A stretch of DNA of 64,000 nucleotides from Halosolutus gelatinilyticus (GTDB taxonomy: Archaea; Halobacteriota; Halobacteria; Halobacteriales; Natrialbaceae). Positions within the stretch are counted from its first letter, which is position 1, and every line of letters begins with the position of its first letter. Positions 30,018-55,040 of this stretch are shown here, in pieces. The notes below the pieces were generated by a model. It saw nothing but the letters and a program-made list of their open reading frames with translations, was not told the DNA's origin and did no database searches. Both the position numbers and the translations under genes were made by a program. The stretch is taken from assembly GCF_023028105.1 (NCBI RefSeq), contig NZ_CP095494.1, positions 1 through 64,000 on the forward strand. Reading direction: 5' to 3'.

Positions 30018-30683
30018 ATGAGTTCGACACAACAGTACCATGAGTCGGTAGCACAGGCTACCGAATCCTACGAGCACAACCCGGGGGAGGTGTTCGAGGA
30101 AGAGATCGAGCACGATCACACGATCTGCAATCGGTGTTTCCGCGCCCAGTTCCGGCTAGAAACGGTTGCAATCCCAGTCCGCTATGCAGAGGGCGAGTAT
30201 GGCTACGATCCTGTCGAAGAGGCTGACGTCGGGCAGGAAACCGTTCTCTGTCAAACCCAAGAGCAGACAGCGAACGTCGAGACCTGCCACCCACCGCGGA
30301 TTGAAGGCCCGATCTACGACCGATCATCGGACGATCCGATCGCGAAGGTCGAAATCCCGCTCGAATGGAAGCGAGCAAATCCGCCGGAGAAAATCTACTG
30401 TCGGTGTGGCGCTATCGACCAGGATGGGTCGCGACCACCACTCGCAAAACAAGAAGCTGTCGAGCATGCGATTCGGATCTCCAATCGACTCGAGGAGGCC
30501 GACATCGCGCACGATCGCCGGCTTCTAAAAGAACAGGTCTACCGCTGGAAAGGTGAACCGGAGCTCGCGAGCAAAGACGATACACTATTCGAACATGCTG
30601 TCCGCATGGCCGTCGAATCGGCACGTGGTCAGACGCCGATCGGAATTCGCGTTGAGGGCGGCGAGGTAGTCAGAAACGGCTGA
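30018..30683 (+). CDS. Zinc-binding protein, first gene of the surface-protein operon
   Basis: A 221-residue soluble acidic protein from the ATG at 30018. It has Cys pairs at HTICNRCFR (about residue 36) and YCRCG (about residue 128), plus a single Cys in ETVLCQTQ, so a zinc ribbon is likely. The C-terminal part is helical (VEHAIRISNRLEEADIAHD). No enzymatic motif is seen. It ends ten bases before the giant surface gene at 30694 and so probably opens the operon, perhaps as a regulator. That role is inferred from position only. Confidence 0.5.
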   Translation: MSSTQQYHESVAQATESYEHNPGEVFEEEIEHDHTICNRCFRAQFRLETVAIPVRYAEGEYGYDPVEEADVGQETVLCQTQEQTANVETCHPPRIEGPIYDRSSDDPIAKVEIPLEWKRANPPEKIYCRCGAIDQDGSRPPLAKQEAVEHAIRISNRLEEADIAHDRRLLKEQVYRWKGEPELASKDDTLFEHAVRMAVESARGQTPIGIRVEGGEVVRNG

Positions 30684-30693
30684 GAACTCGTTC

Positions 30694-33600
30694 ATGACAC
30701 GAAAATCAACTCCGAACGACGCAAATAGCCGCTGGTCTCGGCTGATCGGCGGGATCAGCTCATCCATGCCGTCTATCAACTACGAAAAGTTTCGGATGGT
30801 GTTTCTTGCGATTGTCATGGTGGCGAGCACGGTCGCGATGCCGCTCTTATTCACAGGCGGAGTCCACGGAGCCACATCAAACCATACCGGATCGGCACTC
30901 GCTCAATCTACCGATGACACAAAATACGTCTATTCAGGTGATGGATCTGGAATTGTTAAAAAGATAGACCCCAGTGACCAATCTGTAGAATGTGAATATA
31001 CGGCACCAGACCGGATTGATGCCATTTATGCCCATCCTGACGGAGAAACAATTTATATCGGTGGATATGGCGGTTATATTCAGGCAGTAAACACTATAGA
31101 TTGTACGAGACAGTGGGTATACTCTGACTATGACGGAAATGCTGTATATGATTTCGCTGTTAATGGTGATGGGACCCTTTATGCCGGTGGGCATAATGGC
31201 AATGTAATAGCTCTTGACACTTCTGATGGATCGAAACTTTGGGAATACACCGGCCACACTAGCTCAGTTTCGGGAGTCGCATACAGTAACGGAAATGTGT
31301 ATTCTGGTTCGTGGGACAACACGCTCCGTGCTATTGACGCTGACACTGGAACTAGCAAGTGGGTATACGGTGGACACTCGTATTCAGTCCGGTCCGTTGC
31401 AACTGACGGGAATGGGACGGTTTTCTCCGGCGGGATAGATGGCGAAGTCCATGCCGTCCATGCGTCTGACGGTACTAACAAATGGAAGTACAACGGTCAC
31501 GGCTCGTCTAACGTTGAGGGCCTAACTGTTGGAGGGGACGGAACAGTATACACAGCCGCGAGAAACAACGAATCTCACTCGCTAAACCCCTCTGACGGAT
31601 CACGAAATTGGATTTATGACCACGGTGACGTGGTAAGTGATGTAGCTGCAAGCGGGGATGGAAGTGTATATACTGTAGGTAACTCTGAACTCCACTCAAT
31701 TTCCACTTCCAATGGTAGCAACGAATGGGTATTCACCGGGCATGCTGGTCCTATTAACGCGGTTGAAACAGCGTATAGTCCGTCAGTTGAATTGACAGAC
31801 CCAATCACCGGCCGCGTCACCAATCAACACGGCGACCCAGTTGATAACGCGACAGTTCTGGCTCATTCGATCACTGAACCCGCACTCGACGAGTCGGACG
31901 CCCGATCGCTCGAACGGCAAGCCAAAGACCTCCGAGACGAGCTCACGAACCCGCTCCCCGAGCAGTGGGACGAGGACTATGATCTCGATGCTCACATGGA
32001 GGGCGCGAGCGGGACGTACGCACTCGTGCACGCCCAAGATGACTGGGGCATTTCGTCGTGGTCAACGTCAGCCTCGTCGAACGTCGACGAGCCGAGACTC
32101 CAGGTTGACTCGGACCAAACGGTCATCATCTCACTGTGGGACCCTGACGAGGACGGCGGCTGGTTCGACAACCAAGTCGACAATTCGTTTCCCGGCTCCA
32201 CAACTGACGGCGAGATCACCATCCGGCAACTGAGTCCGACGGGCGAGCCGATCGACTCGACCACCCATGAAACAGAGGTCATCGCGACCACGACCGGCGG
32301 CCGGGTCTTCGGCGAAAACGAACATCACGGCGTCCGCGTCGACCTCCCACCAGGAGTCTACCAGGCGGTCCCGGAGGACCATCCCGGGCGCGGCTATACG
32401 TTCGTTGTCGGCTCACCGGACGAGCTCGCCCAAGAATTCCACGACGACCTCCGGGACGAAGCTGATCGGCTCACTCGGCGTACCGAGCGAATTCAGGACT
32501 TGCTGGCCGACGACGGCCTCGTGGTCGAGACCGCGCGTACGGACGCCAACGGCGAGTTCGCGATCGAAGCGCCGTCGAACGCCGTGACCACGGATCTCAA
32601 AGCGATGAAGGCTGACGGTACGATCCTCGAGACCGACGAAAACCCCGGTCTTGATGACCTCCGGAACGCCCAACTCTCCGACTACAACGGGTCGTTCTAC
32701 CTTCCGAATCCGGTGCCGAAAACCGTCGAACCACCCGCGGAGGACGTGCAAATCACGGTCTACCGATCACCCGAAGTCCCGCTGTCGGATATGGAGTCGT
32801 TCGCCGACTTGATGGCATTCCTCGATGAACAGCGGCTCAACGAGACAATTGGAGACCTCCGAAGCGAGTACGATCAACGATTCGACGAGATGGAGCGATC
32901 GACTCTCGAACGCGTCTACGCTGACCACCGCACGCTCGTCGAGACGGTCCCCGGCGCCAAGGATCGCTATCTCGATCGATCGGACTTCGATTCGATCCAA
33001 GACGCGGAGGGCCTTTCTACGGACGAACTGAGCGAGGAGACCTCGCATATGCAGGTCGCGCTCGCGAACGTCGGTCAGATCGACCCGCCGGAGATCGACG
33101 ATCCAGAGGACCTACTCGATATCGAGGACGGCCTCCTCTCCGGTGAGCATCCAATCCCTGACGGCGTCGAAGAGGACTCGATTAGCGTCGAACTCCATCC
33201 AGTTAATGGGGAGGGCGTCGAAGTCATCGACGAAGAGTATTGGTCGGTAGAGTCGGACGGCTTCTTTGGTGGCCGATCGGTCGTCGTCGAAGACTACCCG
33301 GTCGAAGCCGAGGACGCCGCAGCCTACCAACTGCGCGTCCGTGGGGCGGGCGAGGACGGCCTACTTGACTCACCGCTTCCGATCGCGAACCCCGCGTTCG
33401 ACGGCGAGGTACCCAACATCCGCGCAGTCGATGTGTCGACGCTCTCGCCCGGCCCCGACGAGCGCGTGAGTCTGACGTTTCGGGCTGATGAAGACGCCGG
33501 AATCGGCGGGATCGAATCGATCGAGGCGATCGGCCCTGACGGCGAGCAGGTCGACACGTCGATCGACGGCGATACTGCCCGCTTTACGACCAAGGGTGCG

Positions 33601-34293
33601 GGCGAGCACTTCGTTCGTGCGACGGTCACCGACGACACGGGCTCGCAATTCGTCAAATCGTTCAGCGTGCGCGCGTTGGAGCAACCCCGATCGGACCCAC
33701 CGACGGTGCGTGCCGAACGCGGCCCGATGGGACTCTACGCGCTTGCTGGCGAGGGCGTGGACGACGCCGAGATCGCTGTCGATGGTGATAAAGTCCGCGT
33801 ACGGGCGATCGTCCCCGGCGACGAGACGCCGGGAACGATCCACGTCAAACCCGATGCTGCGCTCTCGGGATCGGCGTACGAGATCGATGTCGCCGTACTC
33901 GCAGGTCCCGAGGAACGACAGGTCTCGACCAACCTCGAGACGGTGATCCATCTGGATAGCCTCTCGGAAGAGGCCACGCTCTTCCGCGGCGAAGCAAGCA
34001 CATGGGGCGACCCAATTGAGTGGGACGGCGGCAACCGCTATGGCGAGGTTGTCGAACGAGAGAACGGCAAGATAATTCTCCGTACGTACTCGAACGACAA
34101 CGGTCAAATCACGGTCTCGATCGACGAGGACCCGGGATTCATCCGATCGAACCAGTACCGGCTTGCGCAATGGATTCCGAGCTTCTCGATTCCATTCCTT
34201 GGATCGGCGATCATCCCGGCTGCCGGTGTGGCATCGGCGATTGGCACTGTCGGTGTGGGGCTTGTGGTCGGTCGACGGCGCGTTCTTCCCTAG
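30694..34293 (+). CDS. Giant surface protein A: beta-propeller head on conserved stalk
   Basis: A 1199-residue secreted protein. A basic leader (MTRKSTPNDANSRWSRLIGG) precedes a hydrophobic signal or membrane segment (about residues 32-56). Residues about 70-365 form a PQQ/WD40-like beta-propeller, with repeats such as GTLYAGGHNGNVIALDTSDG and WEYTGHTSSVSGVAYSNGNV. From about 368 the stalk shared with the gene at 34303 begins: a carboxypeptidase-regulatory-like unit (TGRVTNQHGDPVDNATV), a helical coiled region around 700-780, Ig-like units, and a C-terminal membrane span ending VGRRRVLP. DNA for the propeller is visibly AT-richer than the stalk. Likely a cell-surface or particle-surface adhesin, inferred from architecture. 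Confidence 0.7.
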   Translation: MTRKSTPNDANSRWSRLIGGISSSMPSINYEKFRMVFLAIVMVASTVAMPLLFTGGVHGATSNHTGSALAQSTDDTKYVYSGDGSGIVKKIDPSDQSVECEYTAPDRIDAIYAHPDGETIYIGGYGGYIQAVNTIDCTRQWVYSDYDGNAVYDFAVNGDGTLYAGGHNGNVIALDTSDGSKLWEYTGHTSSVSGVAYSNGNVYSGSWDNTLRAIDADTGTSKWVYGGHSYSVRSVATDGNGTVFSGGIDGEVHAVHASDGTNKWKYNGHGSSNVEGLTVGGDGTVYTAARNNESHSLNPSDGSRNWIYDHGDVVSDVAASGDGSVYTVGNSELHSISTSNGSNEWVFTGHAGPINAVETAYSPSVELTDPITGRVTNQHGDPVDNATVLAHSITEPALDESDARSLERQAKDLRDELTNPLPEQWDEDYDLDAHMEGASGTYALVHAQDDWGISSWSTSASSNVDEPRLQVDSDQTVIISLWDPDEDGGWFDNQVDNSFPGSTTDGEITIRQLSPTGEPIDSTTHETEVIATTTGGRVFGENEHHGVRVDLPPGVYQAVPEDHPGRGYTFVVGSPDELAQEFHDDLRDEADRLTRRTERIQDLLADDGLVVETARTDANGEFAIEAPSNAVTTDLKAMKADGTILETDENPGLDDLRNAQLSDYNGSFYLPNPVPKTVEPPAEDVQITVYRSPEVPLSDMESFADLMAFLDEQRLNETIGDLRSEYDQRFDEMERSTLERVYADHRTLVETVPGAKDRYLDRSDFDSIQDAEGLSTDELSEETSHMQVALANVGQIDPPEIDDPEDLLDIEDGLLSGEHPIPDGVEEDSISVELHPVNGEGVEVIDEEYWSVESDGFFGGRSVVVEDYPVEAEDAAAYQLRVRGAGEDGLLDSPLPIANPAFDGEVPNIRAVDVSTLSPGPDERVSLTFRADEDAGIGGIESIEAIGPDGEQVDTSIDGDTARFTTKGAGEHFVRATVTDDTGSQFVKSFSVRALEQPRSDPPTVRAERGPMGLYALAGEGVDDAEIAVDGDKVRVRAIVPGDETPGTIHVKPDAALSGSAYEIDVAVLAGPEERQVSTNLETVIHLDSLSEEATLFRGEASTWGDPIEWDGGNRYGEVVERENGKIILRTYSNDNGQITVSIDEDPGFIRSNQYRLAQWIPSFSIPFLGSAIIPAAGVASAIGTVGVGLVVGRRRVLP

Positions 34294-34302: not shown

Positions 34303-37300
34303 ATGACACGGAAATCAACCCCGAGCGACGCGAACAGCCGCTGGTCTCGGTTGGCTGGCACGATCAATCTATCCATGGCGTGTAGCGGACAACTCCGAGC
34401 GATCATACTCGCGTTTTTGATGGTCGCCTCACTTCCGGTGATGTCGATCGCGTACACTGGCTTCGGGGACGGTGGGACAGCAGTTGCCGCATCTGGAAAC
34501 AGTTCCGTGACTGACGGGTTCGAGAACTATGATTCGGGCACTACCCCGGGCGGCGATTGGGAGGATACAGGAACTGCTCCTTCTGAAGTCACAATGAATC
34601 AGTCCTATGAAGGTGACAAAAGTCTGCAAGTGGGGACCTCCTCCAACAATGGTAAGGTATTTTACAGGAACCAGTCCGTTCATGCGACTGACATTGACGT
34701 TTCTGTCACTATGTATTCTCATTCTACTTCCGAGACACGATTTGCATTGCACCCGGAAGGAACAGACGATTCCCGGGTCATTGTGTCTATAGTTGGCGGA
34801 GACTTGCAGATCTATGATGGTTCATTCACTGTGATTGACAGTAATGTTAACAACAACGAATGGGTGACGGTCCAGATAAACAATGTTGATCCATCTAACG
34901 ATACCTTTTCGCTCCGCTGGGAGTCGCCAAACTCGTCAGGAGAGGCTCACGATATAGGATCTGATGGGACGATACCTGACGGAAACTTGGACCCGGAATT
35001 GTATTCTGGCGCAGAAGCTCATTTTGATCAGTTTGGATATGGTATTGGATTAGGTGGATTTTCAGAGCCGATCACCGGAACCGTCGTTGATCAACACGGC
35101 GACCCAGTTGATAACGCGACCGTCGAAGCATGGGGGATCGCCGAACCAGCACTCGACGAAAATGACGCCCGATCGCTGAAACGCCAAGCCGAGGATCTCC
35201 GCGACGAACTCGCCGATCCGATCCCCGAGCAGTGGGACGCCGACTACGATCTCGACGCCCACATGGACGCGGACGGAACGTACGCACTCGTTCACAGTGA
35301 GAGCGATTGGGGCGTCTCGAGTTGGTCGACATCGGTCTCCTCGAACGTCGACGACCCACGCCTCCAGATCGACTCGGATCAGACGGTCGTGATCTCGCTG
35401 TGGGATCCCGCCGAAGACGGCGGCTGGTTCGACAATCAGGTCGACAATTCGTTCCCGGGCTCAACCACGGACGGCGAAATCACGATCCGGCAACTCGGCC
35501 CGACGGGAGAGTCGATCGACTCGACCACGTACGAGACCGAGGTGATCGCGACCACCACGGGTGGAAGAATCACCGGCGAAAACGAACACCATGGCGTCCG
35601 CACGCGACTCCCACCGGGCGTCTATCAGGCCGTCCCCGAGGGTCACCCCGAACGTGGATATACGTTCGTTGTTGGCGATCCGGACGAGCTGTGGCAGGCG
35701 TTCGAGTCCGACCTTCGTGACGAAGCGAACCGGCTGACCGGTCGCGCCGAGCGCATCCAGTCGATGCTCCAAGAGGAGACGATCGTCCGCGAAACGGCGC
35801 GTACCGACGAAAACGGCGAGTTCGAGATCGATATTGCGTCGGATGTGGTCACCGCGGACGTCCGCGCAATGAAAGCCGACGGCACGATTCTCGACGGCCT
35901 CGAAGATCCGTCACTCGACGATCTGCGCGAGGCACAAGCGGGCAACTACAACGGATCCTTCTATCTCCCATCGCCAACGCCGAACACTGTCGAACCGCCT
36001 GCGGAGGACGTCCAGGTCACAGTCTACCGGTCGCCGGAGGTTCCACTTGGGGATATGCAGTCGCTTTCGGAGCTGCTAGCCTGGCTTGAGGACCAACGCC
36101 TCAATGAGACGATAGAGGACCTCCAGAGTGAGTATGATCAGCGGTTCGAGGAGATGGAGCGATCGACGCTCGAGCGCATCTACTCCAACCACCGCATGCT
36201 CGTCGAGACGGTCCCCGGCGCCGAAGGTCGCTACCTCGATCGATCGTCGTTCGGCGAGATCCAAGACGCCGAGAGCCTGAGTACGAACGAACTCTCGACT
36301 GAGACGACCCATATGCAGGTCGCACTCGCGAACGTCGATCAGATCGAGCCGCCCGAGCTGCCGGATTCGCCGGACAACTTGATCGATCTTGAGGACGGTC
36401 ATCTCTCCGGCGAGACACCATTACCTCCCGGCGTCGACGAGGATACGATCGCCGTCGAACTCCTTCCGGCGAACGGGCAGGGAGTCGAGACGATCCCCGA
36501 GGAGTACTGGCACGTTGAGTCGGGACTTTTCGGCGACAACACGATCGTCGTCGAAGACTACCCGGTACAGGCGACCGATGCACCGGCCTACACGCTTCGG
36601 GTCCGTGCAGGCAGTGATGAGGGCTATCTCGACGATCGAATCCCGTTCGTGAATCCTGGATTCGACGGCGAAATCCCAGGAATTCGGGCGATCGACCTGA
36701 ATACACTTTCTCCCGGTCCCAACGAGCGCGTCTCGATGACGCTCCGGACGAGTGAAGACACCAGCGTTGATGGGATCGACTCGATTGACGTCTTCGGCCC
36801 CAACGGCGAGGAGCTCAACACGACGATCGACGGCGACACCACACGATTCTCCACCAACGGAAAGGGCAAGCACTTCATTCGGTTGGCGATCACCGACGAG
36901 ACTGGATCGACGTTCGTTCGATCTTTCAGCGTGCGTGCGTTGGAACAGAGTCGGTCAGACCCTCCGACGGTTCGGGCTGAACAAAGCACGACTGGTCCGT
37001 TCGCAATCGCCGGCGAAGGACTCGATGACGCGGAGATCGCCGTCGACGGCGATGAAATCCGGGTCCGGGCGATCGTTCCGGGCGGCGAAATCCCTGGAAG
37101 CATCCACGTCAAGCCGGACGCAGTGATGGACGGCGACACGCACGAGATCGATATCGCTGTGCTCGAGGGGACCGACGAACGGCAGATATCCACGAACGTG
37201 GAGGCGGTGATCCATCTCGACTCGATCGCCGAGGACGCCGACGTGTGGCGTGGGTCGCCGAGCTTGCTTGGCCAGCCGATCAAGTGGGACGGAGGCAGCC

Positions 37301-37557
37301 GCTACGGCGAGGTCATCAAACGCGAGAACGGGAAGGCGATCGTCCGGACGTACACGAACGACGATGGCGCGACGACCATCACGATTGAGGAAGATCCCGA
37401 TACGTGGCGATCGGCGCAGTACAGCATCGCGTCGAGGATCCCGAGATTCGATATCCCGTTCATCGGATCGATCGCGACGCCATCCGCGTTCGGTGGCATG
37501 TCGATCGGGGCGATTGGGATCAGCCTGGTCGTCCACCGACGCCGCACACTTCCCTGA
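34303..37557 (+). CDS. Giant surface protein B: jelly-roll-like head on conserved stalk
   Basis: A 1084-residue paralog of the preceding gene, starting nine bases after it. The leader (MTRKSTPSDANSRWSRLAGT) and hydrophobic segment match. Residues about 55-250 are unrelated to the propeller and look like a concanavalin/LamG-type jelly roll (SVTDGFENYDSGTTPGG, then NNEWVTVQINNVDPSNDTFS). From about 255 (TGTVVDQHGDPVDNATV) it tracks protein A to the C-terminal anchor (VHRRRTLP). The head-coding DNA is again AT-richer. Two different heads on one stalk suggest alternative ligands on host or partner surfaces. Many Asn-x-Ser/Thr sites would allow glycosylation. Confidence 0.7.
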   Translation: MTRKSTPSDANSRWSRLAGTINLSMACSGQLRAIILAFLMVASLPVMSIAYTGFGDGGTAVAASGNSSVTDGFENYDSGTTPGGDWEDTGTAPSEVTMNQSYEGDKSLQVGTSSNNGKVFYRNQSVHATDIDVSVTMYSHSTSETRFALHPEGTDDSRVIVSIVGGDLQIYDGSFTVIDSNVNNNEWVTVQINNVDPSNDTFSLRWESPNSSGEAHDIGSDGTIPDGNLDPELYSGAEAHFDQFGYGIGLGGFSEPITGTVVDQHGDPVDNATVEAWGIAEPALDENDARSLKRQAEDLRDELADPIPEQWDADYDLDAHMDADGTYALVHSESDWGVSSWSTSVSSNVDDPRLQIDSDQTVVISLWDPAEDGGWFDNQVDNSFPGSTTDGEITIRQLGPTGESIDSTTYETEVIATTTGGRITGENEHHGVRTRLPPGVYQAVPEGHPERGYTFVVGDPDELWQAFESDLRDEANRLTGRAERIQSMLQEETIVRETARTDENGEFEIDIASDVVTADVRAMKADGTILDGLEDPSLDDLREAQAGNYNGSFYLPSPTPNTVEPPAEDVQVTVYRSPEVPLGDMQSLSELLAWLEDQRLNETIEDLQSEYDQRFEEMERSTLERIYSNHRMLVETVPGAEGRYLDRSSFGEIQDAESLSTNELSTETTHMQVALANVDQIEPPELPDSPDNLIDLEDGHLSGETPLPPGVDEDTIAVELLPANGQGVETIPEEYWHVESGLFGDNTIVVEDYPVQATDAPAYTLRVRAGSDEGYLDDRIPFVNPGFDGEIPGIRAIDLNTLSPGPNERVSMTLRTSEDTSVDGIDSIDVFGPNGEELNTTIDGDTTRFSTNGKGKHFIRLAITDETGSTFVRSFSVRALEQSRSDPPTVRAEQSTTGPFAIAGEGLDDAEIAVDGDEIRVRAIVPGGEIPGSIHVKPDAVMDGDTHEIDIAVLEGTDERQISTNVEAVIHLDSIAEDADVWRGSPSLLGQPIKWDGGSRYGEVIKRENGKAIVRTYTNDDGATTITIEEDPDTWRSAQYSIASRIPRFDIPFIGSIATPSAFGGMSIGAIGISLVVHRRRTLP

Positions 37558-37566: not shown

Positions 37567-39150
37567 ATGCAACGCAGACAATTCCTATCGACGATCGGAG
37601 CAACGGCAGTCGCAAGTACAACCCCATCGTTCATCGGCCCGATTCGGCTCTCGACACCCGAGGTACTGACACCGCTGGCACTCGCTGACGACGTGGATCT
37701 CGACACGTTCGGCACTGAAGGCAACCCGTCGTTCGCTCTCCGCTACGAAAGCGCCGAGGACCGCACGGACCTCCGAAAGTGGGTCGAGTCGACCGACGAG
37801 GGGCACGTGATTCGCGACCTCAAATCGGTCAATATGATCGTCGCAACGGTTCCGTGGTCCGAGGCGGGCCGATCGCGCAAGTTCGGCATCGAGACCTTCG
37901 ACGGCGGATTCGACGACCTTTCGTACCTCGAATTTGCCGACGCGAATACGTTCTTCGAGCGCCCGGAACCGATCGGTCCGGACGGCCTCGCGAGCAGTGC
38001 AGATGACGTGAGCCACGATCTTCGGCTACGTGATCGAATCTCGATCGCGGCCCGAACCGGGCGGACAAGCGTCTCGGACGGTATCGACGGCCTCGCGTTC
38101 GACGGCGACGCACCAGAAACGAATCTCCGGAACGCGCGCCGACACGTACGCGCGGGCGACGGAGTACTCGACACGGTCGATACGTCGACTGCTCGGGTGA
38201 CGATCGCTGATACCGGTGCTGACGACGGCGCACACTTCGATGCCGGTGACGGCACGCTCCGGTTTCATGACGACTCGACCGACTATACCGGCGTCGACGA
38301 TCCGACGGTCGGTGAGGATGGTGCGAGTGCGGTCGCCGACGGAGACGGCCACGGAAGTTGGGTGTCCGCGTGTATCGGCGCGAACAACGCCGACGGCCGG
38401 TACTCCGGGTTCGTTCAGGATGCCGAGTTGGTGATCGCGAAGGTACTCGGCGATGACGGTAGCGGATCGATCGGCGATATCGTCGCCGGCGTCGAGCTGG
38501 CGATCGAGACCAATTCGGACGTGCTCTGCATGTCACTCGGGTCGGCACAATGGTCCGACGCGTTGGCCGCGGCGCTGGCCGACGCGTGGGAGGCGGGCGT
38601 CTTCCCCGTGGTCGCGAGCGGCAACGATCGCTATGCGACGACGTTCGTGGCGCACCCAGCGTCGGCGGAGGACGGCTTCGCGGTCAACGCGACGAACGTC
38701 CCCGAATCAGAGGACAGGGACGACACGGAGATCGCGTACTTCGGGAACGTCGGGCCACACAGCGGCATCGGCGACCTCTCGAACGGCGAATCGGAAGGCG
38801 CGACGCCGCAACTCGCGGCACCGGGTATGAATATCAAAATCGAACCGGTCGGGACGCTGACCGGCACGAGCATGGCCGCACCGATGGTCGCCGGCGCCGC
38901 GGCCGTGCTCGCTGCCGACGGCCACGACAACGAGACGATCCTTGATCGACTCACGACGTGTGCGTACCCGATCCCGAACGCGGGCTACACCGAGACCGAA
39001 AACGGGCTGCTCGACCTTGAAGCGGCGCTCAACGGCGACGAGTACGAGGAAGAACAGGCCAACGTCCGATCGGAAGAAGCCGAGATTCGGGATACGATCA
39101 ACGAGGCCTATTCGGAGACGCGGGGCCGAAAACTCGCTGGGTTGTTCTGA
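37567..39150 (+). CDS. Subtilisin-like serine protease (S8), Tat-exported
   Basis: A 527-residue protein. It begins MQRRQFLSTIGATAVAS, a Tat-like signal with a weak twin-Arg, followed by a propeptide-like region. The S8 triad is complete: Asp about 215 (TIADTGADD), His about 262 (GDGHGSWV) and Ser about 435 (GTSMAAPMVAGAAAVL), with the oxyanion Asn in VASGND. It follows giant protein B by nine bases, so it is probably co-expressed. A role in processing the surface proteins is inferred. Halolysin-type nutrition is an alternative, but the operon context argues against it. Confidence 0.85.
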   Translation: MQRRQFLSTIGATAVASTTPSFIGPIRLSTPEVLTPLALADDVDLDTFGTEGNPSFALRYESAEDRTDLRKWVESTDEGHVIRDLKSVNMIVATVPWSEAGRSRKFGIETFDGGFDDLSYLEFADANTFFERPEPIGPDGLASSADDVSHDLRLRDRISIAARTGRTSVSDGIDGLAFDGDAPETNLRNARRHVRAGDGVLDTVDTSTARVTIADTGADDGAHFDAGDGTLRFHDDSTDYTGVDDPTVGEDGASAVADGDGHGSWVSACIGANNADGRYSGFVQDAELVIAKVLGDDGSGSIGDIVAGVELAIETNSDVLCMSLGSAQWSDALAAALADAWEAGVFPVVASGNDRYATTFVAHPASAEDGFAVNATNVPESEDRDDTEIAYFGNVGPHSGIGDLSNGESEGATPQLAAPGMNIKIEPVGTLTGTSMAAPMVAGAAAVLAADGHDNETILDRLTTCAYPIPNAGYTETENGLLDLEAALNGDEYEEEQANVRSEEAEIRDTINEAYSETRGRKLAGLF

Positions 39151-41136: not shown

Positions 41137-41213
41137 CGCGATCGGCCATCTTCCGATCCGATACATCTTTCGCTCCGTCGGCGTACCGTGGTTCGATTCC
41201 ACGGGGAGTGCTT

Positions 41214-44207: not shown

Positions 44208-44543
44208 ATGCCAAATTCAGGACGAAAACCTCGAGGACAGAATCGTAGTCGAACCAGTACCGGAGGTCCACGCATCGAGAACTTCGAACGGTGGCTCTTC
44301 CGGGCCACAGGAAAAGTGCTGTTCCTGTTCATTTTCTGTGCATTCATCTTCATCGGGATGACCCACGATTTGTTGTTCATCGTGGCTCTCGCGGGGATCG
44401 CCGTATTCCTCTGGGGTGCGGTGATCTTCCCGACCCAAGAGTTCAAACAGACGGGTCAGTACCTCTGGAGCGGCCGCGCCGGCGAGGATGTCCACAGCCT
44501 GTGGTGCCGGATCTTGCCGTGGCGAGGGGGTGGTCGTCGATGA
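44208..44543 (+). CDS. Small membrane protein
   Basis: A 111-residue protein. A basic N-terminus (GRKPRGQNRSRTSTGG) is followed by two spans (KVLFLFIFCAFIFIGMT and LLFIVALAGIAVFLWGAVIF) and a short tail with Trp/Cys (VHSLWCRILPWRGGGRR). Its stop overlaps the ATG at 44540. It is the fourth consecutive small basic membrane protein, which suggests a membrane scaffold or coat made from several different subunits. Confidence 0.55.
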   Translation: MPNSGRKPRGQNRSRTSTGGPRIENFERWLFRATGKVLFLFIFCAFIFIGMTHDLLFIVALAGIAVFLWGAVIFPTQEFKQTGQYLWSGRAGEDVHSLWCRILPWRGGGRR

Positions 44544-45454: not shown

Positions 45455-45672
45455 GCCTCCAGAATATCGCACTGGGGGTGATTATCCTCACGATATTCGC
45501 GGTGAGTATGCTGAACCCCGGTGGGTTCTACGTCGCGCTTATTCTGTCGGCCTTCATCGTCGGACTCGTACTATTCGTCCCGTTCGTACAAGAGTACGTC
45601 TTGAGCGTCAACAAGGGCAAAGCGGCCCGGAAAACGCCGGACAAAGGCAACGGAGGGAGTCAGAGAAAATGA
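45448..45672 (+). CDS. Small two-span membrane protein
   Basis: A 74-residue protein whose ATG overlaps the end of the preceding gene. Two hydrophobic segments (NIALGVIILTIFAVSML, then FYVALILSAFIVGLVLFVPF) and a basic tail (NKGKAARKTPDKGNGG). It overlaps the next gene by four bases. Probably a membrane partner of the preceding exported protein, given the coupled translation. Confidence 0.55.
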   Translation: MVSLQNIALGVIILTIFAVSMLNPGGFYVALILSAFIVGLVLFVPFVQEYVLSVNKGKAARKTPDKGNGGSQRK

Positions 45673-45959
45673 TGTTCGAACCACTGATCATAATCGCGGT
45701 CAGTATCGTCACCGGATACTACCTCTCGACTCAGTACGCTGGCCACGCAACGACTCTCCAGTGCCTCTTTCACCTACTCGTCGCAACGATGTGGCTCCTC
45801 GCGGCGATCGTGACGATATACACGGGGTTTTACTTCGCAGGTGCGGTGTTACTCATCCTGTTTTCGTTCTTCTGGCTTTCGAATTACCGGACGATTCGGG
45901 ATTCGGACCTCCGCCGGAAGACGAGTTCGTGGAACCCCTTCGGATACGAACAGAAGTGA
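45669..45959 (+). CDS. Small membrane protein
   Basis: A 96-residue protein with three possible spans (PLIIIAVSIVTGYYLS, then LFHLLVATMWLLAAIVTIYT, then FAGAVLLILFSFFWLS) and a polar tail. Its start overlaps the preceding stop. No homology is recognised. It completes the run of small membrane proteins that began at 43116. Confidence 0.5.
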   Translation: MMFEPLIIIAVSIVTGYYLSTQYAGHATTLQCLFHLLVATMWLLAAIVTIYTGFYFAGAVLLILFSFFWLSNYRTIRDSDLRRKTSSWNPFGYEQK

Positions 45960-46084
45960 CGTCTTCAAACTTCGCCTGTTGTAACGATTATAACGCCTAC
46001 GATGACCGATATGGAACGATACAACCGTAATCGACACCGCTGGTGCCGGCACCGAACACACCACACAGAGACGAGGAGAGTCCC

Positions 46085-46351
46085 GTGACACCCCCACCGC
46101 TGTTTCTGACGGGGAAGTGTCATCCGAATAAATCGGCGATGCAACTCTACGTTGCAGCCGACGTCGTCGAATCGAGCGACTTCCCCCTTGAACCAGAGGA
46201 CGACTACCGGGGCATGACCGTCCCAGGAACGGACGCGGTGCTGTTGTGGCCCAAAGGGTGTTCTCCAGAGTTCCCCCTGGAGGTCGACGACTACTCGGAT
46301 GAACTTGTCCCGTGGCCGCTGAAAGATCGAACGGCGCTCACAAACCGATAA
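46085..46351 (+). CDS. Small soluble hypothetical protein
   Basis: An 88-residue protein from a GTG at 46085, preceded by GAGGAGAG at a suitable distance; a longer GTG start at 46043 is possible. It reads PPPLFLTGKCHPNKSAMQLY and DDYRGMTVPGTDAVLLWPKG, a compact beta-type sequence with two Cys. The preceding 125 bases hold no gene. Function unknown. Confidence 0.45.
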   Translation: MTPPPLFLTGKCHPNKSAMQLYVAADVVESSDFPLEPEDDYRGMTVPGTDAVLLWPKGCSPEFPLEVDDYSDELVPWPLKDRTALTNR

Positions 46352-46360: not shown

Positions 46361-47074
46361 ATGAAATCGCACACAAATACGAACCACGAGCAACGGCGAT
46401 CGGAGCTCGCAGAGCTTCGGCGAGAACTGCGCGATAAACAGGGGTACCTGAGCGACGACAGCGAGGAGCTGTGGAAGGCGATTTCCCAGTGGATCCTCGA
46501 GTCCTACAACGTCCCCGTCGGCAGCTTACAGACGAAGGTCCAGACGGAAATGGCGGAACTACAGGACGACCCGTTGCACAAGATGTATGATCATGCCGAC
46601 GTCGACGACGGGGAAGAAGCATTCCCCAAGCGGTGTAAGGGCTGTCCCCACTACGGCGTACAGTGCCCGCCGCTGGCCCGGTACCACCCGAAGAAAACCT
46701 TCGAGCGGATCCTCGACGAATCGGAGGACGACGACGAATTGCAGGCGGAACTGTCCGCCTACGCGGCGAAACACCATTGCAGCGTCCTACAGGAGATCAT
46801 TTCAGAGTGGGAACGCGGGTACGCGAACTTCCTGAGCCGCGGTGAGCAACTCCGAACCCTCCTGAACGCGGATATCAAGGGGATTGATTTGGAGACCGTC
46901 AACGGTCTCGAACTGGAGTTCGAGAGCCCCGGTGACGCCCTCTCCAGCCCCGCGACGCCGTCGCCGTCGACGGCAGCAGGTCACGGTGATGAGCCGCCGG
47001 CGGAAGCGGCTGAACGGATCGAAACCGTTACGGAGTCGATCATGACTGAGGACGAAACCGAGGGAGAAGCATGA
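46361..47074 (+). CDS. Cysteine/histidine cluster protein
   Basis: A 237-residue soluble acidic protein. It begins with a helical region (RRSELAELRRELRDKQGYLS). Around residue 92 it has CKGCPHYGVQCPP, followed about 45 residues later by KHHCSVLQEI; four Cys and nearby His could bind zinc or an iron-sulfur cluster. The C-terminal third is low complexity (SSPATPSPSTAAG). The stop overlaps the next ATG. Function unknown. Confidence 0.5.
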   Translation: MKSHTNTNHEQRRSELAELRRELRDKQGYLSDDSEELWKAISQWILESYNVPVGSLQTKVQTEMAELQDDPLHKMYDHADVDDGEEAFPKRCKGCPHYGVQCPPLARYHPKKTFERILDESEDDDELQAELSAYAAKHHCSVLQEIISEWERGYANFLSRGEQLRTLLNADIKGIDLETVNGLELEFESPGDALSSPATPSPSTAAGHGDEPPAEAAERIETVTESIMTEDETEGEA

Positions 47075-48120
47075 TCGACGTGCGGAGTGCGATAATCGCC
47101 GCGATTGCGGTGCTGGCCGTCGTCGGGATCGGGTACCTCCTCTGGATGCGCCGATCGTCGTTGAACGGCGATCGCGAGCAGATCGAACGCACCCAAGAGG
47201 ACCTCCGGATGGAGTCCAAGAACGCACAGCGTCCCGAACGCGTCGGGTTCACGACTCGGGCGCGGGTCCAACCGACGACGACGCTGCTCTTCTTTGGTTC
47301 TGTGGCCGCGTTCCTGCTCGTCATCTTGGTCGGTGCGTATCAAATGGCGAAGTCGGGCAGTCCGTCGGAAATGGCGTACGCCGATCAGATCGAATTCGCG
47401 ATTTCGATACTGATAGCCGTCGCGGCCGGCGTCTGGTTCAAGATGCGGTTAGACAGCAAGGCCGGCGAATTGAATATCACGTACGAAGGCGAGACGTCGA
47501 ACGCGTCTGAGACGTACTACTACGATCGGAATCTCGTCCAGCCGCTGTTTGACGATAAAGGGGATCGCGACGCGCTCTTGGTACCGGTCTTCAAGAAGAA
47601 TCGGATTCTGGGGCTGTTCTGGTCGCCGAAACTGACGGCTGACGACGACAAAGCGCGCGATCTCGACAAGAACCTCCCTGGCGATCAAGTGACGTACGAA
47701 GTCCCGCTCGACCAATCGTCGACGTGGGACCAAGAAGAGGCTCGTATCACCGTTCGGGCAAAAGATGACAGTCTCATTTCGAATCCCGATCGGCGGGCAA
47801 CGTACGAGTTCGTCCCGTCTGATCGGAAATCTGGCGCCGAAATCCAGACTATGAAAGACGAGATCGAGCAGCTTCGGAAGCACCTCGATCACGAGCGCCG
47901 GCTGAACGGCACGCACACCGAGATGATCGAGGCGATGGAGGAAGCCCTGGAGAACCGCAACCACGGCAGCCTCGAACACCTCGACGACGCGAAAAAGATG
48001 TTCCTCGATATCATCGAATCGGTGAACACCGACCACGATCGGCGATCCGATCGCTCCGAGTCTCGGAACGACTCACGTGATGGAGTGCTGACCTCGCGGA
48101 GTACGGCGAAGGCCGAGTAA
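47071..48120 (+). CDS. Membrane protein with cytoplasmic coiled coil
   Basis: A 349-residue protein. Hydrophobic spans lie at about residues 5-25 (IIAAIAVLAVVGIGYLLW), 70-92 (TLLFFGSVAAFLLVILVGAY) and 107-125 (IEFAISILIAVAAGVWF). A beta-rich domain follows (YEVPLDQSSTWDQEEARIT), then a coiled coil (MKDEIEQLRKHLDHERRL, about 260-305) and a charged tail. It may link the membrane proteins to cytoplasmic partners such as the ATPase. The start overlaps the previous stop. Confidence 0.55.
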   Translation: MIDVRSAIIAAIAVLAVVGIGYLLWMRRSSLNGDREQIERTQEDLRMESKNAQRPERVGFTTRARVQPTTTLLFFGSVAAFLLVILVGAYQMAKSGSPSEMAYADQIEFAISILIAVAAGVWFKMRLDSKAGELNITYEGETSNASETYYYDRNLVQPLFDDKGDRDALLVPVFKKNRILGLFWSPKLTADDDKARDLDKNLPGDQVTYEVPLDQSSTWDQEEARITVRAKDDSLISNPDRRATYEFVPSDRKSGAEIQTMKDEIEQLRKHLDHERRLNGTHTEMIEAMEEALENRNHGSLEHLDDAKKMFLDIIESVNTDHDRRSDRSESRNDSRDGVLTSRSTAKAE

Positions 48121-49498: not shown

Positions 49499-51622
49499 AT
49501 GAGTCTCGATTTACTCGATCGCGATCCGCACGACCCGAACCCAGGTATCAAAACGCGAATCGTCCGTCGAATCCTCGGCGATCCTCGCAAGGCTCCGACC
49601 CGGCTTATCGGCGCCGCGATCTTCGTCCTGATCGGGGTTATCGTCGCCGGCGTGTGGGCAGTGATTCAAACCGAGACCACGACCTCATCATCGTCCTACT
49701 GGTTCGTCCGGCTCGTGGGGAGCATCGTCAACACAATGTGGGTGCTCGTCCCCGTCGCGATCTACCTGTTCTGGCGCTATATCGGGGTGCTTCGGAAGCG
49801 ATACGCCGAGTCGGCCGCCGAGATCACGGGATGGCTTCCGGAGTCGATCGAGCACCTGTCCGACGAAATGCGATCGACCGATCGGACGACGCGTGTCATC
49901 GCCACAACCGATCACTCGTTCGAGGAAATCAGGTCGAACGTCGACGCAGCCCTCCGCGGTGAACCCCACGAAGGCGAAGTTGTCGACTACTACGGACGGT
50001 ACGAATCGAACAACGGTGACGGTCAGCCGGAGGCCCCGGCGTCGGACGATAGCGATCTCGAGTCCCGCCTCGACGAACTCTCGGCTCGCGAGACCGAACT
50101 GATCGAGGAGTACAACCGAAAAACCGAGCGGATCGACGATCTTCTCGATGACGCCCTCGGTGCCGATCTCGACCTCAGTGATCCCTCGGCACTCGACGAT
50201 CGGGTGTCGATGTACGATCTCATGGATGGGGGCGGCCAAGACGCCGTCGACGAAGCTGACCAGCTTCTCGAGGAGTGCGAGGCGATCGAACAGGAACTCG
50301 AATCGGTCCGCGACGAACTGGCCGCCGTCCGCGCCGAGATCGAGTCGGAAATCGAACCCGAGAGCGATCTGGATGTACGGTCCCGAGGCCATGATGATGT
50401 GTACGCTCTCCCGGAACCGGAACCGGAAACGGACGACGACCACAGCACCGATCGAGTCGCATCGGATCGCCAGTCGATCGGGGACGTATGGGCCAACGCG
50501 GACGGGCTACGTGCCAAAGGTCGAGCGGTCGTCGGCCACTGCTATCGGAGGGCGGTAGACGTCGCAATCGCGTCGATCGGCTGGATTGTCGGGCTGATCG
50601 CGGGCGTTCTCGGTACGATTGCGAACCTCGTCTCGGGTAGTCCTGGCGATGAACCGGAAGACGAGGACGAGGTCCCGTGGAAGGTCCGATTTGCGGAGGA
50701 ACTCAAACACTTGGTTCTCGATCTGAACGCGGGACTGCACTCCGATGACCTGCTCTGGAAGTTCGGACTGCCGGCGTTCGTGACGTTCGTTTCGCTGCTG
50801 ATCCTCGCCCGTCTGTGGGTGCATCCGATCCTTTACATCGTCTTCATCGCGATCGCGATCCTCGTCGGCCTGTTCACGTTCTGGGTGTCGAAAAAGCGCC
50901 GATCGAGGCGGCTGCAAATCCACCGACAGCCGGAGGAGTGGAGCTACTGGGACGACGCCGCCGGCCGCGTGAAAACCGTCGAGACGGCGGACGTAGAGTG
51001 CTATATGGGCTGGCTTCCCGGTCGTCGGTACGTGTCCTACGATCGCGAGGAGTTCATCACCGAGTTCTCGCTTCGACTCTATCAGCTCACCCACGACGAA
51101 AAGGTCTCCCCGTCTGTACTGGAGCAGTACGCCCGAAACATCGCTCAGATGAAGCCGAATCTCCGGGGCCACTTGGAGCAGACCGAGAAGCCGGCAATCC
51201 AACAGGAGATCAAAACGGTCGTTGAGGACGCCCCCGAGCAGGTGATCGACAAAGCTGGCCTCGCGATGGAGGTGATCGAGCACCCGCACGAGGATAAGCG
51301 GCTGTCGTCCGATCTTGGCCACGACCCACGACTTGTCGCAGACGAATACCGCTGGCTCGTCGAAGAGGGTCACGTTCTCGAAGAGATCGACGTCGAATTT
51401 GAGGATGCGAGTGGCCGAACAACGACGAAAACGCTCGTCTACCCGGCCAAAAAGAAACGGCTTCCTGATATGGAGGCGCTGCACTCGCAGTTCTCCGATC
51501 GGTTCACCGGATCACACGGCGATCCCTACTACAACCTCCCCGAGTGCAACCCGACCGAAGATCTTCGCGGGTTCGTCCCGTCGCCGCGGGCGGCACAACT
51601 GTTCGAAACTGGGGGTGTATAA
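49499..51622 (+). CDS. Large multi-span membrane coiled-coil protein
   Basis: A 707-residue protein whose ATG abuts the preceding stop. Spans occur near residues 36-58 (LIGAAIFVLIGVIVAGVWAV), 72-95, 355-380 (ASIGWIVGLIAGVLGTIANL) and 425-470 (FVTFVSLLILARLWV and the next segment). Between them is a long acidic coiled coil (about 180-285, including LLEECEAIEQELESVRDELA). The C-terminal cytoplasmic domain (about 480-700) includes WSYWDDAAGRVKTVETADVE and a helical region. It may be the inner-membrane platform of a translocation machine, and it directly precedes the ATPase gene. Confidence 0.55.
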   Translation: MSLDLLDRDPHDPNPGIKTRIVRRILGDPRKAPTRLIGAAIFVLIGVIVAGVWAVIQTETTTSSSSYWFVRLVGSIVNTMWVLVPVAIYLFWRYIGVLRKRYAESAAEITGWLPESIEHLSDEMRSTDRTTRVIATTDHSFEEIRSNVDAALRGEPHEGEVVDYYGRYESNNGDGQPEAPASDDSDLESRLDELSARETELIEEYNRKTERIDDLLDDALGADLDLSDPSALDDRVSMYDLMDGGGQDAVDEADQLLEECEAIEQELESVRDELAAVRAEIESEIEPESDLDVRSRGHDDVYALPEPEPETDDDHSTDRVASDRQSIGDVWANADGLRAKGRAVVGHCYRRAVDVAIASIGWIVGLIAGVLGTIANLVSGSPGDEPEDEDEVPWKVRFAEELKHLVLDLNAGLHSDDLLWKFGLPAFVTFVSLLILARLWVHPILYIVFIAIAILVGLFTFWVSKKRRSRRLQIHRQPEEWSYWDDAAGRVKTVETADVECYMGWLPGRRYVSYDREEFITEFSLRLYQLTHDEKVSPSVLEQYARNIAQMKPNLRGHLEQTEKPAIQQEIKTVVEDAPEQVIDKAGLAMEVIEHPHEDKRLSSDLGHDPRLVADEYRWLVEEGHVLEEIDVEFEDASGRTTTKTLVYPAKKKRLPDMEALHSQFSDRFTGSHGDPYYNLPECNPTEDLRGFVPSPRAAQLFETGGV

Positions 51623-51624: not shown

Positions 51625-54078
51625 ATGTCTTCGGAACGAGAGAACCCGGCTCTTGCCCGGTATGACGAGATCCAGGCGAGAGATTCGACCGACGTCGGAA
51701 CGGCACTGAAAAACCTGAAGCGAAAGCGGATTCAGCGACGTCAGCGCCAGTCGCAGGCGGAACACGAGGCGTTCGTCCGGAAACTCGTCACGGAGGCCCG
51801 GGCCGCGATCGCCGGCGAGAGCCACTACCACATCGAGGACCTGCTGCTGACGCTCCACTGGACGATCAAGCAGTCCGAGAACCTGCCGACGGTGCTCGAT
51901 CCGTCCTACGAAGGCCTGGATGCGGAGACGAAAACTGCGTTCCACGACCACGATCACGTTCGGTCACAGGGTGGATCGCCACCAGACCCGGAGCGAGAAC
52001 TCGAGACGCTTGCAGAAATCGCGGAAGAACTCGGAATCATGAACTCGATTATCGACACGACGAGATACGCACCTGTACGATTCGCATCGATCGACGAACC
52101 CGGCGCAAAGACGACCGTCGACGAACCGACACCGGTCGGTCGGCTTCGGATCCCGAGGGACTCGGCGGTCGACCTCGATGATCGCCTCGTCGAGATTCCG
52201 CACCAATCGTGCGATCACATCGGCGCGATCGCGCTCCCGCGTCGCGGGAAGGACTCGACGCTCGTCTCACTCGGGAAGAACCTCCAGTCAGAGCACGGCT
52301 ACTCGTACATCTCGATCATGGACGACGGCCGGATGGAGACGCCGATGATCGCGATTCCGAACGACGAGCAGGTCATCCAGCAGAACCTCGATCGATTCGA
52401 GCAGGAATCCGACGCGATGGCCGCGGACGTGTTCGTGCCGGCGATGGGCGACATTCCCAACCTGCTGCCCTCGAACTTCCGGCTGTTCACGATCGGGATC
52501 GACTGTCTTACGCCGCACCTGATCCTCCGCCTCGCGGGCGTCACGAAGAGTGACGAGACGGTCGAGGCCCGGATCAAGAAGGCACTCGACGAGACGCTGA
52601 CGAACAGCGGGTCGGTGTCCGAGCTCGTCTCCCGACTCCAGGTGTACGCCCGCGAAATGGAGGCGACGATCGAGTGGACCGAGATCGAGGAAAAACGCGC
52701 TGGCGAGACCTCGACGTCGACGTACACGGCGCACTATCAGATGGACGCCGAAAGCGCCCTCGAAACGGCGGCGCAACGTCTCGGTCAACTCGCCGCGGAG
52801 GGACTGATCACGTCGCCGTCGGCCGCGACGAACCTCGATATGGTCGACGTGATCGCCAATCAAGAACGGGCTGCCGTTCTCTGCTGCAACTTCCTCGGTA
52901 GCGGCCTCGAACCGCTGAAATACGTCATCATGGACCTGTGGCTGCGGCTCATCTACAAGGCCCGTGACGAGAACCCCCGGTTGCCTCGCGTTTGTATCGA
53001 GATCCGCGAGTTGAAGAATATCGCTCCGTCGAAGATGGCCGACGTCCGGTACAAGGACGATATCAAGACGCTCCGGCAGACGATATTCTTCCTGACAACG
53101 CAGGGCGGAAGCCGGCGGATCCTTCTCCTCGGATCCACGCAGAAGTGGAACGACGTCTACAAGCCGGTTCGATCGAACATCGCGATCAAGTTCCTGTTGC
53201 AGCTCGGCGAGGACGAGATTGACACGCTCGACAGGACGCACCATTTCTCGTGGGAACAACAGCGCCAACTCTCCGAGTTCGATATCGGCTGGGGAATGAT
53301 CATCTCCGAAGGGAAGCCCGACTACCCGGTCGAACTCCGCGGGGCGCCGTGCGGCCTCGGCCTCGGCGATCGCCACTGGCGCGATCGGTACGGGATCGCG
53401 TGGGGCGCTCGCGTTCGCGAGCACGAGCACGACTCGTGGCGTGGCGACGAGGACGATCCCGAGTGGTGGGTCGACGTCGTCGACTGTGCGGTCTACGAGA
53501 TCGACGCCGACGGGCCACCGGCGATCGGCGATTGGTTCCTGCTCCGCGAAGACCTGGAGGGCGTCGATACGCGGGTCGCTGACGGGGCGCCGGTCGCGGG
53601 CCGGTTCCTCGAGACGCCGGCGGACGATCGGCGGGCGTGGGTCGACGACGCCCTGGAACAGCGCCGCGAGCTCGAGATTCCGAATGATTTGCTCCTACAA
53701 CCGAGCGGCCACCACAACAAGCAGCGAAGCGTCTCACTCGCCGCAGACGACCTCACCGCAACCGTCGAGGATGTCGCGGACGAGTACGGCGTTCCCGAGC
53801 AGATCCGGCCGTGGCTGGAGGATCCGCCGGGCAAACGCGAGAAGCTGATCGAGGCGGTGACCGCTGTCCACGAACACGACGGTCTTCGGACGACTGGCGA
53901 CGTCGCCGAACACCTCTCCTACAGCGCGTCGACGCTGCGAAACTACTGGTCGAAAGACGACGGTCTCGGGCCGTGCTGGGCGCAAAAAGGGAAGGACTAC
54001 GTGACGACGCCTATCGGCAAGCAGGCTGCGACGCTGGATTGGGAATCGATCAACGACGACCTGTCTGAGTACGAGTGA
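51625..54078 (+). CDS. FtsK/HerA/VirB4-type P-loop ATPase with atypical Walker A
   Basis: An 817-residue protein starting at the ATG at 51625. The P-loop region reads IALPRRGKDSTLVSLGKNL (about residues 202-220), where Lys is followed by Asp instead of Ser/Thr. A Walker B-like strand occurs at RVCIEIRELKNIA (about 453-466), and a sensor-like strand at RRILLLGSTQKWNDVYKPVR. The C-terminus holds a winged helix (GDVAEHLSYSASTLRNYWSK, about 755-775). The order matches HerA/FtsK-family DNA pumps and conjugative or viral packaging ATPases, so a role in moving DNA across or into a membrane structure is likely. Its stop comes two bases before the MCM-like start. Confidence 0.7.
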   Translation: MSSERENPALARYDEIQARDSTDVGTALKNLKRKRIQRRQRQSQAEHEAFVRKLVTEARAAIAGESHYHIEDLLLTLHWTIKQSENLPTVLDPSYEGLDAETKTAFHDHDHVRSQGGSPPDPERELETLAEIAEELGIMNSIIDTTRYAPVRFASIDEPGAKTTVDEPTPVGRLRIPRDSAVDLDDRLVEIPHQSCDHIGAIALPRRGKDSTLVSLGKNLQSEHGYSYISIMDDGRMETPMIAIPNDEQVIQQNLDRFEQESDAMAADVFVPAMGDIPNLLPSNFRLFTIGIDCLTPHLILRLAGVTKSDETVEARIKKALDETLTNSGSVSELVSRLQVYAREMEATIEWTEIEEKRAGETSTSTYTAHYQMDAESALETAAQRLGQLAAEGLITSPSAATNLDMVDVIANQERAAVLCCNFLGSGLEPLKYVIMDLWLRLIYKARDENPRLPRVCIEIRELKNIAPSKMADVRYKDDIKTLRQTIFFLTTQGGSRRILLLGSTQKWNDVYKPVRSNIAIKFLLQLGEDEIDTLDRTHHFSWEQQRQLSEFDIGWGMIISEGKPDYPVELRGAPCGLGLGDRHWRDRYGIAWGARVREHEHDSWRGDEDDPEWWVDVVDCAVYEIDADGPPAIGDWFLLREDLEGVDTRVADGAPVAGRFLETPADDRRAWVDDALEQRRELEIPNDLLLQPSGHHNKQRSVSLAADDLTATVEDVADEYGVPEQIRPWLEDPPGKREKLIEAVTAVHEHDGLRTTGDVAEHLSYSASTLRNYWSKDDGLGPCWAQKGKDYVTTPIGKQAATLDWESINDDLSEYE

Positions 54079-54080
54079 CC

Positions 54081-55040
54081 ATGAATCGAGACGAATCCAA
54101 GATCAAAGACGAGTACCACACGCTCGTCCGTGACGTCTTCGAGGGGGTTGTACGTGAGGTCAACAGCCACTACCCCGCGGAGCGATCGGTCCGACTCGAC
54201 TGGGAACGGATCAGAGAGTTCGACAAGACGATCGCGAAGACGTTCCTTCGGAACCCGCAGCGGGCGCGCGGCAGTACCGCGGAAGCGATCGAGTGCTGGA
54301 ACGAGGTCGATATCCCGGACTCGATCGTCCGTGTGCACAACATCCCCGACGAGTACCAGTTCCGCGTCGGGAAGCAGCGAACGATCCATCTCGGTCGGCT
54401 CATCACGATTACCGGCGAGGTCGTTGAAATGGACGGCGTCAAACCGTTCGCGAAGATGGCCGCACTCGAATGCCACCAGTGTGGGACGCTGAACTACGTT
54501 CCCCAATCGTACGGGAAGATGATCGACCCGCACGCGTGTGAGGGTTGTGAGAAAAAATCCGGTCCGTTCCTGTTCCGGCGACAGCAGTCGGAACTGCTCG
54601 ACTACCGCAAGGTGATCCTCCAGCGCGCGGATACAAATCTTGACGACGATCCGCCACAGCTCGCCGTCTATCTCACCGAGGACCTCGTCGATCGGATCGG
54701 ACCTGGAGATCACGTCTCGCTCGTCGGCTACTACGATACCGGCCGCATTCAGAAAAAATCAGTTCTCCAAACGTACCTTGAGACGTGGGATATCGAGTCT
54801 CACGAGGAAGGCGTGCTCGCCGATCGACTCTCGCCGGATGAGCTTGCCGACGCGATCTGCGAGGAAGTCGAAGCGAAACAGGACGAAGACCCGTCGTCGT
54901 TCGGCGCCGATCGCGAGGCAATCATCGAAACACTCGTCGACGAAGGTGTCCGCCGCAAGGAAGTCGAGTCACAACTGGAGGACCTCATCGATCAGAAGGA
55001 AATCAGCGAGATCGGCGGCGGCAAACTGATGGTTACGTAG
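54081..55040 (+). CDS. MCM N-terminal-domain protein without AAA+ motor
   Basis: A 319-residue protein with the layout of the archaeal MCM N-terminal region: a helical domain (FDKTIAKTFLRNPQRARG), an OB fold (RTIHLGRLITITGEVVEM) and the four-Cys zinc finger (ECHQCGTL, then ACEGCEKK, about residues 132-160), then KVILQRADTNLDDDPPQLAV. The AAA+ helicase core is absent; instead there is an acidic helical segment and a C-terminal winged helix (AIIETLVDEGVRRKEVESQL). It should bind single-stranded or melted DNA without unwinding it. It may direct element DNA to the ATPase or interfere with host MCM. It is the last gene of the run. Confidence 0.75.
   Translation: MNRDESKIKDEYHTLVRDVFEGVVREVNSHYPAERSVRLDWERIREFDKTIAKTFLRNPQRARGSTAEAIECWNEVDIPDSIVRVHNIPDEYQFRVGKQRTIHLGRLITITGEVVEMDGVKPFAKMAALECHQCGTLNYVPQSYGKMIDPHACEGCEKKSGPFLFRRQQSELLDYRKVILQRADTNLDDDPPQLAVYLTEDLVDRIGPGDHVSLVGYYDTGRIQKKSVLQTYLETWDIESHEEGVLADRLSPDELADAICEEVEAKQDEDPSSFGADREAIIETLVDEGVRRKEVESQLEDLIDQKEISEIGGGKLMVT

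Follow-up and report, generated by a model that had tools for sequence, protein, structure and literature searches.

A probable pR1SE-type plasmid-vesicle gene core on a plasmid-sized replicon of Halosolutus gelatinilyticus

The plasmid pR1SE of Halorubrum lacusprofundi R1S1 (KX687704) is transferred without cell contact and without lysis; its core products, ORF25 excepted, have been reported in vesicles, and ORF25 has been proposed to recruit the DNA (PMC10818511). The stability of the vesicles depends on N-glycosylation by the host (PMC10384203). Plasmids potentially transferred in plasmid vesicles, termed apHPVs, are defined by the presence of at least five of the six markers ORF6, 8, 17, 21, 23 and 24 (PMC10818511, Lucking et al. 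2023). The window analysed here, a stretch of 64,000 nucleotides, corresponds to bases 1-64000 of C4 (NZ_CP095494.1; 88,308 bp), one of the four contigs of the 4.76-Mb genome of Halosolutus gelatinilyticus (Natrialbaceae). Its plus strand carries at 30018-55040 about 24 co-oriented genes, overlapping or closely spaced, which very probably constitute the core, with both its clusters, of a plasmid of the pR1SE type on a plasmid-sized replicon.

The core and its relatives

Homologues of the nine named apHPV core genes (ORF6-9, 17, 21, 23-25) are all found in the block in the order of pR1SE, with all six markers at matching positions. The cluster ORF6-9 is followed by a middle region and then by the cluster ORF17-25, and C4 encodes both an Orc1/Cdc6-type protein and ParA, as expected of a plasmid. 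Two conserved clusters around a variable middle, a plasmid location, flanking defence genes and Orc1/Cdc6 are features that C4 shares with the published family (PMC10818511). The core frames are all intact and none is missing. Pfam recognized only three genes of the block with confidence, by the S8 protease, the MCM OB domain and, in the first of the two giant proteins, the beta-propeller head.

A preliminary description, made from the sequence alone, had recognized a packed block on one strand, with which the frames, their order and their strand agree, but had taken it for an undescribed machine. The latter view is wrong, because the block matches the pR1SE/apHPV elements already described (PMC10818511); it belongs to this plasmid-vesicle family, and the machine is not new. 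The functional suggestion, DNA handling by a coat or by a vesicle apparatus, is well supported and right in outline.

The comparison with pR1SE which that description had proposed was positive, the block being collinear with the pR1SE core and with 17 further loci of haloarchaea. Direct BLAST of the window's proteins against pR1SE recovered, in matching order, ORF6, 7, 8, 17, 18, 21, 22, 23, 24 and 25 at identities of 25-43%. Iterated profiles added ORF9, 19 and 20 and extended the match to 20 loci. Since iteration exaggerates the E-values of those sequences from which a profile was built, more reliance can be placed on the values from direct BLAST. When ORF25 was searched by tblastn against 72,556 plasmids, it matched 14 records, pR1SE and pR1SE2 (KX906370) among them, all haloarchaeal and all typed as non-mobilizable; the 707-aa ORF24 protein matched 13 of these 14. 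Synteny elsewhere, likewise proposed as a check, proved strong: nearly all core genes have profile homologues, identically arranged, in 18-20 of the 20 compared loci, ORF17 and ORF21-25 occur in every one, and ORF6-9 are found wherever a locus reaches that far, with local swaps (S8-ORF8-ORF6 in Halorussus vallis, ORF6-ORF8-S8 in locus G060). The order of the 25-kb block is thus kept across three orders of Halobacteria. In a class-wide sample ORF25 was present in 27 of 391 genomes, a patchy pattern typical of mobile elements, while protein, pattern and alignment searches for ORF25 in 50,697 phage records and IMG/VR gave no match, in agreement with the IMG/VR result of the earlier authors (PMC10818511). 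The plasmid record of Halorussus vallis contains the core twice with near-identical genes (L021 1-26000 and L060 8700-34000), possibly an uncut assembly overlap and not a pair of elements.

The whole core order, ORF6-9 and ORF17-25, is shared with pR1SE and pR1SE2. C4 differs from both in that its ORF6 is doubled, with a different head on each copy, that the family of the gene at 41658 has two members, that ORF6 is preceded by an unrelated gene, and that ORF25 is followed by a motorless MCM gene, which pR1SE lacks; beside its block no RelE/ParE pair was found. The nearest relatives are plasmids of Halomontanus rarus (NZ_CP119801) and Natronorubrum daqingense (NZ_CP019329), whose ORF25 proteins are about 77-78% and short MCMs 68-70% identical to those of C4, but which have a single ORF6 each.

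The region between the clusters has been described as variable and rarely shared (PMC10818511). At the level of sequence profiles it is less variable than published, and two of its genes (41658-42362 and 43448-43846) are common to nearly all elements. The exported and small basic membrane proteins predicted here in the preliminary description were also seen in our motif and hydropathy scans. It is the profiles that unite the proteins encoded at 41658 and 42359 in a single family; compared directly by BLAST, the two gave no significant match, and a recent duplication is therefore not claimed.

C4 represents a well-preserved addition to the few plasmids for which a spread in vesicles of their own coding has been proposed. 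We found no description of the tandem ORF6 genes, the ORF25-linked motorless MCM, the two shared middle-region genes or the probable ORF1 relative discussed below. Leads beyond the published account are offered by the conserved and swapped parts of ORF6, by a putative partner of ORF25 that would bind DNA and is confined to one clade, and by the two genes of the middle region that almost every element has.

Table 1. Genes of the block and other features of C4 mentioned in the text
Feature	Position	Strand	Evidence or distribution
Cys-rich (Zn-like) protein, non-core	30018..30683	+	sole relative among compared elements: broken gene, one Natrinema plasmid
ORF6 copy A, giant surface protein, beta-propeller head	30694..34293	+	28% to pR1SE ORF6, E 1e-100; head PF13570/PF13360
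ORF6 copy B, same body, unrelated head	34303..37557	+	69% to copy A over ~830 aa
ORF7, S8 serine protease, Tat signal	37567..39150	+	PF00082; 43% to pR1SE
ORF8, Tat-exported	39152..39976	+	32% to pR1SE, E 2e-20
ORF9, exported, proposed outer-coat protein	40111..41136	+	profile match to pR1SE 12795
137-aa protein	41208..41621	+	6 loci
Tat-exported protein	41658..42362	+	profile family in every locus covering the middle region; alignment
Sec-exported, second member of 41658 family	42359..43105	+	48% to Halomontanus; shared profile family
Small basic membrane protein	43116..43445	+	8 loci; hydropathy
Small basic membrane protein, near-universal	43448..43846	+	18/20 loci
Small basic membrane protein	43853..44200	+	4 loci
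Small basic membrane protein	44208..44543	+	64% to Halomontanus
ORF17, Sec-exported	44540..45454	+	20/20 loci; 35% to pR1SE
ORF18-type small membrane protein	45448..45672	+	20/20 loci
ORF19-type small membrane protein	45669..45959	+	profile search
ORF20-type small protein	46043..46351	+	18/20 loci
ORF21	46361..47074	+	20/20 loci; 30% to pR1SE
ORF22, membrane protein with coiled coil	47071..48120	+	20/20 loci; three hydrophobic segments
ORF23, envelope-spanning, 452 aa	48140..49498	+	20/20 loci; 27% to pR1SE
ORF24, multi-span membrane platform	49499..51622	+	20/20 loci; 31% to pR1SE
ORF25, P-loop ATPase, putative DNA pump	51625..54078	+	38% to full-length pR1SE protein, E 3e-180; conserved motifs
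Motorless MCM: N-domain/OB and winged helix, no AAA+	54075..55040	+	PF17207; winged-helix model; beside ORF25
267-aa protein upstream of core	28110..28913	+	relatives in 7 other loci
Orc1/Cdc6-type replication initiator	10090..11295	-	TIGR02928 E 2e-44, below curated cut-off
1132-aa relative of 1117-aa pR1SE protein (80-3433), probably ORF1, predicted replication protein	3412..6810	-	~29% over 1070 aa

Tandem ORF6 genes and the motorless MCM

The two giant surface proteins noticed in the preliminary description are 1199 and 1084 aa long, possess signal anchors, and are both ORF6 homologues whose genes are separated by 9 bp. Their bodies are mutual closest relatives in the tree (100/100) and thus stem from a local duplication. 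The heads, however, are unrelated to each other: copy A has a beta-propeller, a type of head also present in pR1SE, Halobiforma and other elements, whereas for the head of copy B the only similar one is that of Halomontanus, a near relative. An adjacent pair was found in C4 alone among the 26 genomes with ORF6, and this tandem arrangement sets C4 apart from the other apHPV-type genomes tested. Most simply, one of the heads would have been exchanged after the gene was duplicated, which would provide the element with two surface specificities.

The last gene of the block, correctly described beforehand as encoding an MCM N-domain (PF17207, E 2e-18), specifies a protein of 321 aa in which the N-domain, with its four invariant zinc cysteines, is followed directly by a C-terminal domain, the motor region being missing from the alignment. 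Residues 253-321 are modelled as a winged helix with a pLDDT of about 71-88, the remainder of the model being of low confidence. The top structural matches of this part are MCM C-termini, 2ma3 from Methanothermobacter (Z 11.3, rmsd 1.8, 66 aligned) and 2m45 from Sulfolobus (Z 10.8), although other winged helices score nearly as high, up to Z 10.3. Sequence by itself gives weak evidence for an MCM winged helix, and the fold search is stronger. The relatives of this protein, mostly of 313-325 aa, adjoin ORF25 in 15 of 27 genomes. In an ORF25 tree of 34 rows, a single branch (100/100) separates the 19 with an adjoining short MCM from all others, and none of 500 shuffles scored as low.

Four haloarchaeal MCMs were noted in 2014 as consisting of the N-terminal domain only, with a truncated C-terminus and an unknown role (PMC3972481), and three of the four come from species whose plasmids are in our compared set. 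The truncated MCMs of Halobiforma, Halopiger and Haloterrigena (312-315 aa, N-domain, no helicase) are apparently the same proteins as those considered here. In contrast to the earlier account, these short MCMs retain an MCM-like winged helix and adjoin ORF25 of plasmid-vesicle elements. The outliers of 2014 thereby gain a biological setting, and caution is advised before they are counted as replication helicases.

What such a protein might do is finely balanced. It could serve as a replication factor or as an inhibitor of the host MCM ring, a role to which we give somewhat less than an even chance: the protein has retained the two MCM domains without catalytic function, through which it could enter the rings of the host or poison them, and MCM is the commonest replication protein of apHPVs, with 20 cases (PMC10818511). 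Yet it has no motor, it adjoins ORF25 and is co-inherited with it as one clade, and C4 has an Orc1/Cdc6-type gene of its own about 43 kb away. We favour, at roughly an even chance, a role as a DNA adaptor for ORF25, because of the missing motor, the link to ORF25 and the presence of two modules that could bind DNA. It is tempting to speculate further that, in one clade, the non-catalytic ends of MCM were recruited as a DNA-gripping adaptor for a vesicle-loading ATPase, and that C4 moreover gains dual host recognition from alternative heads on the common ORF6 body; this combined proposal is tentative and rather doubtful. In Natronorubrum daqingense the full ORF25 and the short MCM flank a second, partial ORF25, 52% identical to that of the window (L018 4586-6253).

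ATPase, proposed transfer mechanism and alternatives

The preliminary description assigned ORF25 to FtsK/HerA/VirB4-type ATPases. An ATPase is in keeping with its conserved, if unusual, P-loop, which reads PRxGKD[S/A] in all 20 compared sequences instead of the usual GxxxxGK[ST], and with conserved ExRE and STQ-type motifs. The family label, on the other hand, found no sequence match here and therefore rests on published structural similarity: the structure of ORF25 resembles VirB4/TrwB, as that of ORF23 resembles pilus-assembly proteins and that of ORF8 a NEP1-like fold (PMC10818511). An HhH-like nature of the ORF23 protein was not confirmed by Pfam, whereas the predicted S8 protease (PF00082, E 4e-30) and the multi-span nature of the ORF24 protein, with five hydrophobic segments, stand.

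Homology, gene order, clade co-inheritance and domain content are what this analysis observes; since the same parts are intact in C4, its life cycle is probably that of pR1SE. Exported, glycosylatable surface proteins (the two ORF6 products, ORF8, ORF9, ORF17 and the 41658/42359 pair) would gather in the cell membrane with the small basic membrane proteins, and the S8 protease ORF7 would mature the surface coat. ORF22-24 may form a membrane platform on whose inner face ORF25 would dock, acting as a DNA pump that drives, or a tether that holds, the plasmid in the bud. In the short-MCM clade, the motorless MCM probably binds plasmid DNA and would hand it to ORF25. Vesicles coated with plasmid proteins would then bud without lysis and infect plasmid-free cells.

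Several points weigh against this interpretation. Identity to the pR1SE proteins is low (25-43%). The original authors call only pR1SE proven to travel in vesicles, and vesicles that contain the plasmid with its proteins and infect plasmid-free cells are likewise known from pR1SE only (PMC10818511); vesicle formation by C4 is presumed. Sequence comparison of ORF25 with Pfam, PHROG and PDB ATPase families gave nothing convincing, leaving it without family placement, and an AlphaFold model of the protein built from two sequences was poor (pLDDT 35). Finally, C4 is only putatively circular, although an open frame spans its joined ends.

Among the alternatives, the block might be a decayed remnant kept for another use, such as surface display or carriage of CRISPR-Cas. 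Incomplete elements with one cluster are indeed common (PMC10818511), and C4 exceeds the core in size and carries cargo; with every core gene intact, however, we regard this as unlikely. Still less probable is conjugation, in which ORF22-25 would represent a diverged type IV system, for secretion or coupling, that moves the plasmid by cell contact, with the giant proteins as adhesins. The structural likenesses of ORF25 and ORF23 would suit such a role, but all 14 homologous plasmids are typed as non-mobilizable, the host genome has no member of the TraG-D C-terminal family (no search was aimed at relaxases on C4), and pR1SE, whose homologous proteins are found in vesicles, moves without cell contact (PMC10818511). 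An enveloped virus, pleolipovirus-like or new, would fit a spike-like coat, an ATPase and non-lytic budding, but it is equally improbable given that ORF25 had no match in the phage records or IMG/VR, that a PHROG search of ten block proteins yielded only generic propeller and MCM domains, and that no capsid gene was found, as for pR1SE (PMC10818511), although the border between such elements and viruses is partly a matter of naming.

Upstream genes, replication proteins and CRISPR cargo

The place before ORF6 is held in other elements by a family unrelated to the gene found in C4. This gene, at the start of the block, had been listed beforehand as a Zn protein; a Cys-rich, Zn-like frame is present, but it lies outside the conserved core and was rejected as a core gene, its sole relative in the compared set being broken. 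Further upstream, a protein of three HNH_repeat (homing-endonuclease-associated) repeats is encoded at 28903-29445, with about 73% identity in two other elements.

On the minus strand C4 encodes a relative of the pR1SE protein at 80-3433, which is probably ORF1; the numbering is deduced, the gene being absent from the pR1SE gene table used. ORF1 has been said to have no homologue in the new elements (PMC10818511). The adjacent stretch 2705-3403 encodes a relative of the pR1SE protein at 4123-4812.

Besides an integrase, C4 carries a type I-B CRISPR-Cas system at 13519-22915 and 23278-26914, with Cas6, Cas8b, Cas7, Cas5, Cas3, Cas4, Cas1 and a 56-repeat array. Its Cas1 and its repeat copies are the only ones found in the genome, and the CRISPR adaptation machinery of the cell therefore appears to ride on the vesicle plasmid. 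Searches for protospacers in the compared elements, in phages (first 27 spacers) and in plasmids (about 39 spacers) gave no convincing match. The neighbouring repeat-spacer units with spacers 35 and 36, at 25503-25634, are identical, and spacers 8 and 34 are nearly so although far apart in the array.

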